DNA from: Nocardioides piscis
Lineage (GTDB): Bacteria; Actinomycetota; Actinomycetes; Propionibacteriales; Nocardioidaceae
Reading direction: 5' to 3'
Length of the DNA: 64,000 bases
NCBI RefSeq assembly: GCF_011300215.1
Contig: NZ_CP049866.1
Coordinates: 2,848,501-2,912,500, forward strand
Part shown: piece by piece, positions 31,613 to 42,329 of the stretch
Layout of the letters: each line of letters starts with the position of its first letter
How positions within the stretch are numbered: position 1 is the first letter of the stretch
Notes under the pieces: model-generated
What the model saw: the letters and a program-made list of their open reading frames with translations, nothing else
Database searches by the model: none
What the model was told of the DNA's origin: nothing
Translations under genes and position numbers: made by a program

Positions 31613-31757
31613 CAGGCGGCGAAGATGCCCCCCGGCGGCACGTCGCGTGGCCGCCGGAGCGGCGGCCGCGGCCGGGCGCGCGCCGGCGTTGCCGACGTCA
31701 CAGCGGACAGGCGCACGAAGACGTCGAGCCGTATGGCAGAGTTCGACCCAGCAAAGA
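31613..31757. other. Intergenic region ahead of the FMN riboswitch
   Basis: 145 bases, no open frame supported. It should carry the rib operon promoter; TATGGC at 31732-31737 is about 20 bases before the aptamer and could serve as -10, but it lacks the final T and no -35 is clear. Confidence 0.4.
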
Positions 31758-31899
31758 GCGTGCTCTGGGGGCGGTGAAACTCCGCACCGGCGGTGACTGG
31801 GTGAAAGTCCGGAAGTCCGCGACCCGGCCACAGCCAGTGGCCGGTTGACCAGGTGGGATTCCTGGACCGACGGTCAAAGTCCGGATGAGAAGAACACGC
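31758..31899 (+). ncRNA. FMN riboswitch (RFN element)
   Basis: Conserved RFN blocks occur in order: GCTCTGGGGGCGGTGAAA, ACCGGCGGTGACTGG, GAAAGTCCGGAAGTCCGCGA, GGTTGACCAGGTGGGATTCC and GACCGACGGTCAAAGTCCGG followed by ATGAGAAGAAC. The closing stem P1 pairs GCGTG (31758-31762) with CACGC (31895-31899). It senses flavin mononucleotide and should repress the rib genes. The expression platform is discussed under findings. Confidence 0.95.
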
Positions 31900-31975
31900 A
31901 CATCGCCAGACGTCCTCCTGATGTCTGCGACCGCGCCCCCGGAGTCCATTTTTCGAAGGACACACGAGGGCAGCG

Positions 31976-40185: not shown

Positions 40186-40686
40186 GTGGACAGACTCATC
40201 CCCGATCCTGGCTTCGCCGGCGACGACGGCAGCGCCGACGCAGGCCTGGAGCGTGCACTCGCCGGCTACGCCCGCGACGAGCTGACCCACGCCGACGTGC
40301 TGCTCGAGCTCCAGGGGGCCAGGCTGCTCGTCCCCGTGGTCGCCACCCTGGGGGAGGTCGAGATCGACGAGCACGGGCTCGCCCACGACAAGACCAGTGA
40401 CATGGCCGCCGTCCTGATGAGGGGTGCCGACGGCCGGCTCGCCCTGCTGTCGTTCACCTCGACGCAGACCCTGGCCCGGTGGAACCCCGAGGCCAGGCCG
40501 GTGCCGGTCCACGCGCGACTGGCAGCCCAGTCGGCCGTCCAGGACGGTGCAGCCGCACTGGTGATCGACATCGCCGGGCCCGTACGACTGGTGGTCGAAG
40601 GGGATGACCTCGTGGCGCTGGCCGCGGGGTGGCGTGCAGCCAAGGTGGGGGAGGACATCGCCTGGATTGGCCGGGGACAGGAATGA
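40186..40686 (+). CDS. SseB-like N-terminal domain protein
   Basis: 166 residues from GTG 40186; GTG 40171 is an in-frame alternative. A GACAAT box ends six bases before 40186, suggesting a leaderless start. ALAGYARDELTHADVLLELQ, ARLLVPVV and DGRLALLSFTSTQTLARWNPEARPVPV match the SseB N-terminal fold common in actinobacteria. Cytosolic, function unknown. It lies directly upstream of the infC promoter, whose -35 is within its last codons. Confidence 0.75.
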   Translation: MDRLIPDPGFAGDDGSADAGLERALAGYARDELTHADVLLELQGARLLVPVVATLGEVEIDEHGLAHDKTSDMAAVLMRGADGRLALLSFTSTQTLARWNPEARPVPVHARLAAQSAVQDGAAALVIDIAGPVRLVVEGDDLVALAAGWRAAKVGEDIAWIGRGQE

Positions 40687-40697
40687 TCGGCTAACCT
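40667..40697 (+). promoter_or_regulatory. Promoter of the infC-rpmI-rplT operon
   Basis: TTGGCC (40667-40672) and TAACCT (40692-40697), spacer 19 bases. Transcription would start near 40704 and leave a leader of about 240 bases. Confidence 0.55.
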
Positions 40698-40703
40698 TCG
40701 GTG

Positions 40704-40941
40704 TTGACCGATCAGTCCCGCTTGCGGGGCAGATCCACCAAGCGGAGACAGCAGTTCGTCTCCCACCCGCACCGACCGCCTGGTCGTCGGGTTCCGGTCC
40801 GGATCAGGCGTTGAGGATTTCCACCAGGATTTCTCCGACTCCCTGACGCTGGCTTCCGCTTGGGCAGAGCGGGAGCCATTGGTGTTTCTAGGCCATTGTC
40901 CTCCCCGGGTCAGACCACAACCCACAGTCACTGGAGGACAC
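40704..40941 (+). promoter_or_regulatory. Long structured leader of infC with attenuator-like hairpins
   Basis: Hairpin 1 pairs CCGCTTG (40718-40724) with CAAGCGG (40739-40745). Hairpin 2 pairs GGAGAC (40744-40749) with GTCTCC (40758-40763) and overlaps hairpin 1. Hairpin 3 pairs GGCTTCCGCT (40851-40860) with AGCGGGAGCC (40868-40877), ten pairs with one G-T, followed by a T-rich stretch ATTGGTGTTTCTA: terminator-like. The first hairpin's arms can pair with hairpin 3's arms, allowing a switch. No coding gene is supported here. Confidence 0.6.
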
Positions 40942-41625
40942 ATCAGCACCGAGCTGCGCATCAACGAGCGGATCCGCGTTCCCGAGGTCCGGCTTGTCGG
41001 GCCAAACGGCGAGACGGTCGGCATCGTGCCGACCGACCAGGCGCTGAAGCTTGCCCAAGAGGCAGACCTCGACCTGGTCGAGATCGCGCCCCAGGGCCGG
41101 CCGCCTGTCTGCAAGCTCATGGACTTCGGCAAGTTCAAGTACGAGAACGCCCAGAAGGCCCGTGAGGCTCGACGGAACCAGACGAACGTCATCATCAAGG
41201 AGATGAAGCTTCGTCCCAAGATCGACGCGCACGACTACGAGACCAAGAAGGGTCACGTCGTGCGCTTCCTCAAGGCCGGCGACAAGGTCAAGATCACGAT
41301 CATGTTCCGTGGCCGCGAGCAGCACCGCCCCGAGCTCGGGTTCAGGTTGCTGCAGCGCCTGGCCGAGGACGTGAGCGAGCTGGGCTTCGTCGAGTCGACT
41401 CCCAAGCAGGACGGTCGCAACATGATCATGGTGCTCGGCCCGCACAAGAAGAAGGCCGACGCCAAGATCGATGCCGCCGCGGCCAAGGAGGAGAAGATGG
41501 CCGAGCGTGCAGCGGTCGTCGATGCCGAGCGCGCCGAGCGCGAGGCCGCCCACGCGGCCGGTCCCGTGGCAGCCAAGAAGGAGCGCGGCCGCTCCGAGAA
41601 CCTCGATCCGGAGATCGAGGCCTGA
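40942..41625 (+). CDS. infC: Translation initiation factor IF-3, starting at an ATC codon
   Basis: 227 residues counted from ATC 40942, which follows GGAGG (40933-40937) and begins the conserved [20 protein letters not shown]. Upstream in-frame TTG/GTG codons (40879, 40882) would add about 21 unconserved residues and have no Shine-Dalgarno. The N-domain, linker ([15 protein letters not shown]) and C-domain ([22 protein letters not shown]) are complete. A long Ala/Glu-rich charged C-terminal tail of about 45 residues is typical of actinobacteria. Rare start codons are known for infC and permit IF3 autocontrol. Confidence 0.9.
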
Positions 41626-41687: not shown

Positions 41688-41882
41688 ATGCCCAAGAACA
41701 AGACCCACTCGGGTGCCAGCAAGCGCTTCCGCGTGACCGGCTCGGGCAAGATCCTTCGCGAGAAGGCTGGCAAGCGCCACAACCTCGAGAAGAAGCCCTC
41801 GAAGGTCACTCGTCGTCTCAGCGGCACCGTCGAGGTCGCCAAGAACGACACCGCACGTGCCAAGAAGATGCTGGGTCTCTGA
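41688..41882 (+). CDS. rpmI: Ribosomal protein bL35
   Basis: 64 residues, highly basic. [20 protein letters not shown] and the C-terminal AKKMLGL are diagnostic. Second gene of the infC operon; 62 bases after infC. Confidence 0.97.
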
Positions 41883-41942: not shown

Positions 41943-42329
41943 ATGGCACGCGTCAAGCGGGCAGTAAACGCCCAGAAGAAGCGCCGGGTCGTCCTCGAGC
42001 GGGCCTCCGGCTACCGCGGTCAGCGCTCGCGCCTCTACCGCAAGGCCAAGGAGCAGGTCACCCACTCGCTGGTCTACAGCTACAACGACCGCCGCAAGAA
42101 CAAGGGCAACTTCCGCAAGCTGTGGATCCAGCGCATCAACGCCGCTGCCCGCGCCAACGGGATGACCTACAACCGCTTCATCCAGGGCCTCAACCTGGCC
42201 GGTGTCGAGGTCGACCGCAAGATCCTGGCCGAGCTCGCCGTCAACGACGCCCCGGCGTTCGCCGTGCTGGTGGAGACCGCCAAGGCTGCGCTTCCCGAGG
42301 ACGTCAACGCCCCCAAGGTCAGCGCCTGA
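41943..42329 (+). CDS. rplT: Ribosomal protein bL20
   Basis: 128 residues. [20 protein letters not shown] and the basic helix [20 protein letters not shown] identify it. ATG follows AAGGAG by seven bases. L20 represses this operon in other bacteria; no obvious L20 site was recognised here. Confidence 0.97.

Follow-up and report, generated by a model that had tools for sequence, protein, structure and literature searches.

In Bacillus subtilis, binding of L20 to the L20 leader stabilizes the terminator, and the distribution of this leader is given as narrow, within Firmicutes, in the part of the source drawn on here (PMC6097659). In Escherichia coli, IF3 controls infC, which has an unusual start codon, and L20 represses rpmI-rplT, to go by excerpts of two papers (PMC10931766 and PMC5472188), the second of which also describes Streptomyces infC as a target of SigR that starts with ATC. 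L20 leaders with differing scaffolds exist, and the hallmarks stated for them are an AA dimer and two consecutive G-C pairs, both conserved; r-leaders across phyla are unusual, and among the 20 new leaders of Eckert and Weinberg, the sole L20 leader is deltaproteobacterial (portions of PMC7247131). No actinobacterial L20 or infC attenuator appeared to be described among the literature matches listed, which were considered mostly at listing level and with the subscription literature outside the scope. Here, we describe a leader preceding actinobacterial infC-rpmI-rplT that is probably an L20-responsive transcription attenuator and a divergent L20 leader of actinobacterial type.

The window, by which we mean the whole 64-kb stretch of DNA that was analyzed, carries these genes on its forward strand, as it does all window features of the leader given below. 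According to the open reading frame list and Pfam, the gap at 40687-40941 lies between an sseB-like gene, ending at 40686, and infC (40942-41625; IF3; Pfam IF3_N and IF3_C), followed by rpmI (41688-41882; L35; PF01632) and rplT (41943-42329; L20; PF00453), the last of which encodes the proposed leader ligand. infC has an AUC start codon, the start being ATC in 149 and ATT in 1 of 150 loci, and is preceded by the Shine-Dalgarno sequence GGAGG (40933-40937), with similar sequences in relatives. By IF3 comparison, the closest named relatives belong to Nocardioides. A candidate promoter at 40680-40705 combines GGAAT-N18-GTT, which we take to be a SigR/SigH-like motif, with an overlapping -10 element of the form TAnnnT (TAACCT, 40692-40697), and the transcript start is predicted at about 40704-40713. 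GGAA[TC]-N17-19-GTT was found in 40 of 79 Nocardioidaceae leaders, and TAnnnT ahead of GACCGA in 74 of them. Elsewhere in the window, an FMN riboswitch (RF00050) was matched at 31756-31901 with 96.7 bits.

The 238-nt leader folds at -104.3 kcal/mol (z -3.35), a value as low being reached by none of 200 shuffles. Its outer helix, P1, pairs GACCG (40706-40710) with CGGTC (40795-40799), as do at least 51 of 80 Nocardioidaceae leaders, counted from the 15 commonest combinations listed, which represent 59 leaders; since its sequence varies little, P1 gains little support from covariation. The P2 hairpin (40710-40735), closed by GATC (40710-40713) and GATC (40732-40735), has a variable interior according to a by-eye comparison. 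P1 and P2 flank the core in Nocardioidaceae leaders; judged by eye, they were not seen in Aeromicrobium-type leaders, which start shortly ahead of the AAG, provided that their -10 box was read correctly. The conserved core itself (40738-40792) was matched by model R1 with 59.6 bits (E 2e-13), the runner-up in the 64-kb window reaching only 11.8 bits. It includes an unpaired AAG (40740-40742), invariant in alignments A1 and A2, with an AA dimer that is the putative L20 contact; the P3 hairpin (40744-40763; GGAGAC 40744-40749 with GTCTCC 40758-40763), supported by covariation and a candidate anti-antiterminator; and P4 (40765-40792), with the base ACCCG (40765-40769)/CGGGT (40788-40792), the ACC/GGU of which contains two consecutive G-C pairs, and the upper helix CGACC (40773-40777)/GGTCG (40782-40786). 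Beyond the 3' end of the core, leaders vary in sequence up to a terminator, such as GGCTTCCGCTTG..AGCGGGAGCC-TTTTTT. The one in the window (40850-40889) has the makeup of an intrinsic terminator, with a G+C-rich 12-bp stem at 40850-40878 (TGGCTTCCGCTT, 40850-40861, with GAGCGGGAGCCA, 40867-40878) and then the U-rich tail TTGGTGTTTCT (40879-40889), whose U-tail score of 4.0 is about average for the family (median 3.8, n = 80). We infer that transcription may actually terminate at this site.

Conservation was assessed in infC upstream regions drawn from 80 named records and from 70 of the family genomes in which IF3 was detected (145 of 149); locus L119, in which infC was not located, was excluded. 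About 150 infC leaders share one core layout: an unpaired AAG followed by Y, P3 (GGAG../..CUCC), one C, and P4 opening with ACC/GGU. The pattern AAGNGG[AG]..TC+CACC occurs in 146 of 146 distinct infC upstream regions of at least 200 nt and in 0.24% of dinucleotide shuffles, figures to be read with the pattern having been composed after inspection of the same loci and fitting four Kitasatospora-type loci loosely. These four loci (L112, L113, L115, and L117) were left out of A1 and of the antiterminator analyses as pattern misfits. A1 is a sequence-only alignment of 60 of the 139 distinct cores, hand-chosen for diversity and shorter loops. Because cores were located by AAG and CCACC patterns, a requirement satisfied by 145 of 149 loci, and their ends by GGT, the method itself accounts for part of the invariance of AAG and ACC/GGU in A1: the AA dimer is present in 60 of 60 cores, and the two G-C pairs of ACC/GGU, partly imposed by the ACC/GGT anchors, in 60 and 59 of 60. 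The next P4 pair, free of anchors on its 5' side, is C-G in 40, U-G in 14, and U-A in 6 cores. Paired cells amount to 85.4% in A1 versus 80.1 +/- 0.6 after shuffling, double-change cells to 66 versus 24.8 +/- 5.3, and the covariation score to 0.234 versus 0.147 +/- 0.009 for shuffled and 0.045-0.140 for slid alignments. P3 pairs changed on both sides number 4 of 6 in A1 and 6 of 6 in A2, to which L221 and L226 were added partly by eye (R1 gives 12.1 bits for L221 and nothing for L226 at E <= 1). A sequence-only reading of this DNA had proposed hairpins in the leader, with covariation across relatives as the check, and P3 and P4 do covary. An SD-like GGAGG in P3 was considered as a ribosome-binding device and rejected, as it is missing from variants such as AAGCGGGAAC (L004 and L021).

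The same reading had suggested an attenuator/antiterminator switch ahead of infC-rpmI-rplT, and this architecture is well supported by comparison of the leaders, which combine a terminator, covarying hairpins, and a competing, mutually exclusive pairing of the terminator 5' arm. Since this arm is complementary to the AAG and the P3 5' strand, that strand can form either P3, with the terminator on, or an antiterminator. In the window, the predicted antiterminator strand CCAAGCGGA (40738-40746) pairs with TCCGCTTGG (40855-40863), excluding P3 and the terminator alike. All heptamers that had been named as switch elements lie where they were placed, namely, CCGCTTG at 40718-40724 and 40856-40862, CAAGCGG at 40739-40745, TCCCGCT at 40716-40722, and AGCGGGA at 40868-40874. 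Their triple pattern is weak alone: 181 of 2,000 dinucleotide shuffles hold a repeated 7-mer plus its complement, and in 35 of 2,000 the complement falls between the copies. Across 79 other distinct Nocardioidaceae leaders, the core CAAGCGG is present in 67, and 51 carry CCGCTTG at some point from the core to the start codon. Thus, the idea that CAAGCGG can pair with either CCGCTTG survives for the downstream copy, the pairing of 40739-40745 with 40856-40862 being conserved, whereas the upstream copy is found in 1 of 79 relatives. The proposed pairing of TCCCGCT with the 3' arm of the terminator fared no better, with a perfect 7-nt upstream complement in 2 of 79 relatives, a count that rests on automatically called 3' arms. 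It is therefore the first of these pairings that is conserved and not the two involving 40716-40724. A role of CCGCTTG at 40718-40724 or of TCCCGCT as a second switch strand would explain their perfect 7-nt complementarity in the window, but given this rarity among relatives and the position of both inside the variable P2 hairpin, it is exceedingly improbable.

For the antiterminator, the 16-nt AAG and P3 5' strand was scanned against everything from core to start codon in 145 loci. The best target overlaps the terminator 5' arm or loop by at least 5 nt in 124 loci, and the mean energy is -20.2 kcal/mol versus -15.3 kcal/mol for shuffled targets. A locus's own target is stronger than all 60 shuffles in 50 loci, and no more than 3 of 60 shuffles are as low in 95; in the other 50 loci, over 3 of the 60 shuffled downstream regions do as well as the real one, which counts against the antiterminator. 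Terminators called blind to the antiterminator strand were obtained in 129 of 145 loci (112 distinct). The 112 distinct own strand/arm pairs average -19.6 kcal/mol, versus -17.4 +/- 0.23 kcal/mol when permuted and -18.5 +/- 0.18 kcal/mol when permuted within clades, the labels of which we assigned from locus order; none of 2,000 within-clade permutations was as low as the own pairs. Two further results count against the antiterminator: the own pair is stronger than the average swapped pair in 92 of 112 cases, and for Streptomyces and Kribbella strands, Nocardioides arms are on average better partners than the arms of the same leaders.

Taken as free duplexes, with interstrand loop closure left out of the energies, the antiterminator is stronger than P3 in 112 of 112 cases (means of -19.6 versus -6.8 kcal/mol). 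P3 thus plausibly needs help to hold on to its 5' strand, for example, from a bound protein. Failing this, the antiterminator may be able to win as long as the terminator 3' arm has yet to be transcribed. The window has energies of -20.5 kcal/mol for the antiterminator duplex, -9.5 kcal/mol for P3, and -20.9 kcal/mol for the terminator hairpin. Forcing the antiterminator upon the whole window leader gives -99.6 kcal/mol, i.e., 4.7 kcal/mol above the minimum, and the minimum-energy fold is the terminated form. This last result would suit a fixed, unregulated terminator with a structured leader, the effect of which is just to reduce expression of infC or to end the transcript of the sseB-like gene upstream. 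Such an arrangement needs neither complementarity between terminator 5' arm and P3 5' strand across clades nor a conserved core, and we consider it very unlikely.

If the leader is an L20-responsive attenuator, the nascent RNA would fold P3 and P4 around the unpaired AAG. With free L20 scarce, the AAG and the P3 5' strand would leave P3 and pair with the emerging terminator 5' arm (40738-40746 with 40855-40863), and with this antiterminator formed, RNA polymerase would continue into infC-rpmI-rplT. With L20 in excess, the protein would bind the ACC/GGU helix as well as the AA dimer and lock P3, so that the antiterminator could not form, the terminator would form instead, and transcription would end at about 40885-40890. 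L20 as the ligand is suggested by homology, operon content, and the L20-leader hallmarks, and the direction of control is proposed by analogy with B. subtilis. The same switch might instead sense IF3, L35, or another factor binding P3/P4: the argument for L20 binding is purely comparative, infC is the first gene and starts with AUC, and IF3 thereby controls its own translation according to the authors of PMC5472188, as excerpted. Sequences bridging to the L20 leader family RF00558, together with the AA and two-G-C hallmarks, favor L20, and another ligand appears quite unlikely to us.

The core is widespread in the class. R1 detected it in 172 of 296 genomes and 84 of 114 genera (E <= 0.01, strict filters that lose weak matches), and in all 30 R1-matched loci that were retrieved, the core pattern precedes an infC with an ATC start by 174-265 nt. 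Of the genomes with a weak match or none, 22 were inspected further (8 with a weak match and 14 of the 124 without any), three of which are only 1.3-1.4 Mb in size. IF3 was found in 20 of the 22, and the core pattern lies upstream of infC in 18 of these 20, including 11 of 12 without an R1 match; in L190 and L194, the infC upstream region lacks the pattern as written. Phylum-wide, R1 matched 24 of 296 genomes. Ten of these matches are weak and outside the class, six of them sitting 109-232 nt before a same-strand IF3 match and four on other contigs.

The sequence-only reading had set this leader apart from the known L20 leader of Firmicutes. That distinction finds no support: order and spacing of the core match the RF00558 consensus (AAG plus 1 nt, a 6-bp hairpin, one unpaired nucleotide, a 3-bp helix containing two consecutive G-C pairs, an upper hairpin, and a terminator), and sequences from other actinobacterial classes bridge both. 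RF00558 had no match at 40500-41200 of the window at E <= 10 and none in 39 genomes of the same genus and order, the own genome included; the controls in B. subtilis, Thermotoga maritima, and Lactococcus lactis were matched. Scanned over 17 infC loci from other classes, RF00558 matched L220 with 65.6 bits (cutoff, 58.7), L232 with 36.1 bits (E 0.002), and L219 with 25.0 bits (E 1.2), and the remaining 14 gave no match. Model R2, built from 23 cores of the class and 6 from other classes without L219, L220, and L232, recovers L220 within the RF00558-matched stretch (30.1 bits, E 4e-5), as well as L225, L223, L224, and L216; it misses 7 of 12 other-class loci, including L219 and L232, and R1 reaches neither L220 nor L232. 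The R1-matched locus L217 and the RF00558-matched L220 have the P4 stretch ACCyUACGGCGCAU in common, in the same place before infC. The core also carries both L20-leader hallmarks, the AA dimer and the two consecutive G-C pairs, which are partly imposed by the locating pattern. In the 14 other-class loci that were tested, a P3-strand antiterminator is clear in 3 (L216, L220, and L232; no more than 1 of 200 shuffles reached so low a value) and absent in some, e.g., L225 and L228.

The shared layout and the bridging sequences suggest that the core is probably a diverged L20 leader; its homology to RF00558 is likely, at scores below Rfam's own threshold. An independent r-leader that converged on the layout demanded by L20 would be in keeping with the variety of L20-leader scaffolds noted above, with the failure of RF00558 on the 39 genomes, and with the R1 misses at L220 and L232. 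The other-class intermediates share the layout, however, and L217 and L220 share the P4 stretch and its location, and we regard convergence as unlikely. L220 also contains a T-box leader match on the minus strand (633-866, 92.3 bits; cutoff, 93), at the locus that holds its actinobacterial L20 leader. Subthreshold cspA thermoregulator matches near infC in L216 (406-747, 47.1 bits) and L221 (1133-1318, 27.1 bits; cutoff, 78) may merely cover cold-shock protein genes.

The 23S rRNA of the own genome has a GGu/aCC helix and CCCUAAG, in an order permuted relative to the core, and this region is presumably where L20 binds. In this region, neither R1 nor R2 found anything at E < 1, so that 23S mimicry is a lead, not a result. 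The best 23S match of the two models, at 4474-4515 of L152 near the 3' end (11.1 and 12.6 bits, E ~0.03), is probably due to chance. An 8-mer, ACAAGCGG, common to the leader core and 16S rRNA (L152:410) was likewise set aside as probable chance. A second 23S rRNA copy, in three matched pieces, lies just past the right end of the window (G000:C1:2915001-2917771).

The leader also meets a catalogued Streptomyces small RNA. Rfam family RF02830 (Scr1601) matches four of five Streptomyces/Kitasatospora infC loci (L111, L114, L131, and L149, at ~1198-1415) with 169-194 bits, the exception being the Kitasatospora locus L112, and the match spans from ~300 to ~90 nt before the infC start, the Rfam model ending in AUUUUUU. 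Scr1601 shares the AAGUGGAG..CUCCCACC core with the window leader, on which the model scores 12.6 bits, below the Rfam cutoff of 100 bits. Rfam lists it among sRNA genes rather than among leaders. In the excerpted part of PMC8388888, the Streptomyces ambofaciens homologue was found among untranslated regions, not among predicted sRNAs. Scr1601 is most simply read as the infC leader in its terminated form.

It is tempting to speculate that a single L20-sensing attenuator, predating the split of Firmicutes and Actinomycetota or transferred between them, governs IF3-L35-L20 across large parts of the two phyla, with the actinobacterial AA-dimer strand serving as the antiterminator and Scr1601 as the terminated product; we see the chances of this broader proposal as evenly balanced. 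If the AA-dimer strand itself is the antiterminator, L20 binding and read-through would be directly exclusive. If the leader works as proposed, feedback by L20 would be common to antibiotic-producing and other actinobacteria, Scr1601 would gain a function, a simple two-state switch would be open to tests in common laboratory strains, and there would be grounds to widen or split RF00558.

Set beside the described systems, the proposed actinobacterial control differs from that of E. coli, where, in the excerpts cited at the outset, L20 acts on translation of the two ribosomal protein genes and infC is outside L20 control. The deltaproteobacterial L20 r-leader, compared with the core by its description in part of PMC7247131, resembles it in the AA dimer and in two consecutive G-C pairs, with a helix in between; 23S mimicry is proposed for that r-leader, which belongs to another lineage and another gene context. 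With RF00558, the actinobacterial core shares layout, spacing, and the position before infC-rpmI-rplT. The actinobacterial form is distinguished by a GC-rich P3, by Y after the AAG, and, in many leaders, by the outer P1/P2 domain, and its AAG/P3 5' strand would itself be the antiterminator, a feature proposed here for the actinobacterial leaders, to which this comparison was confined.
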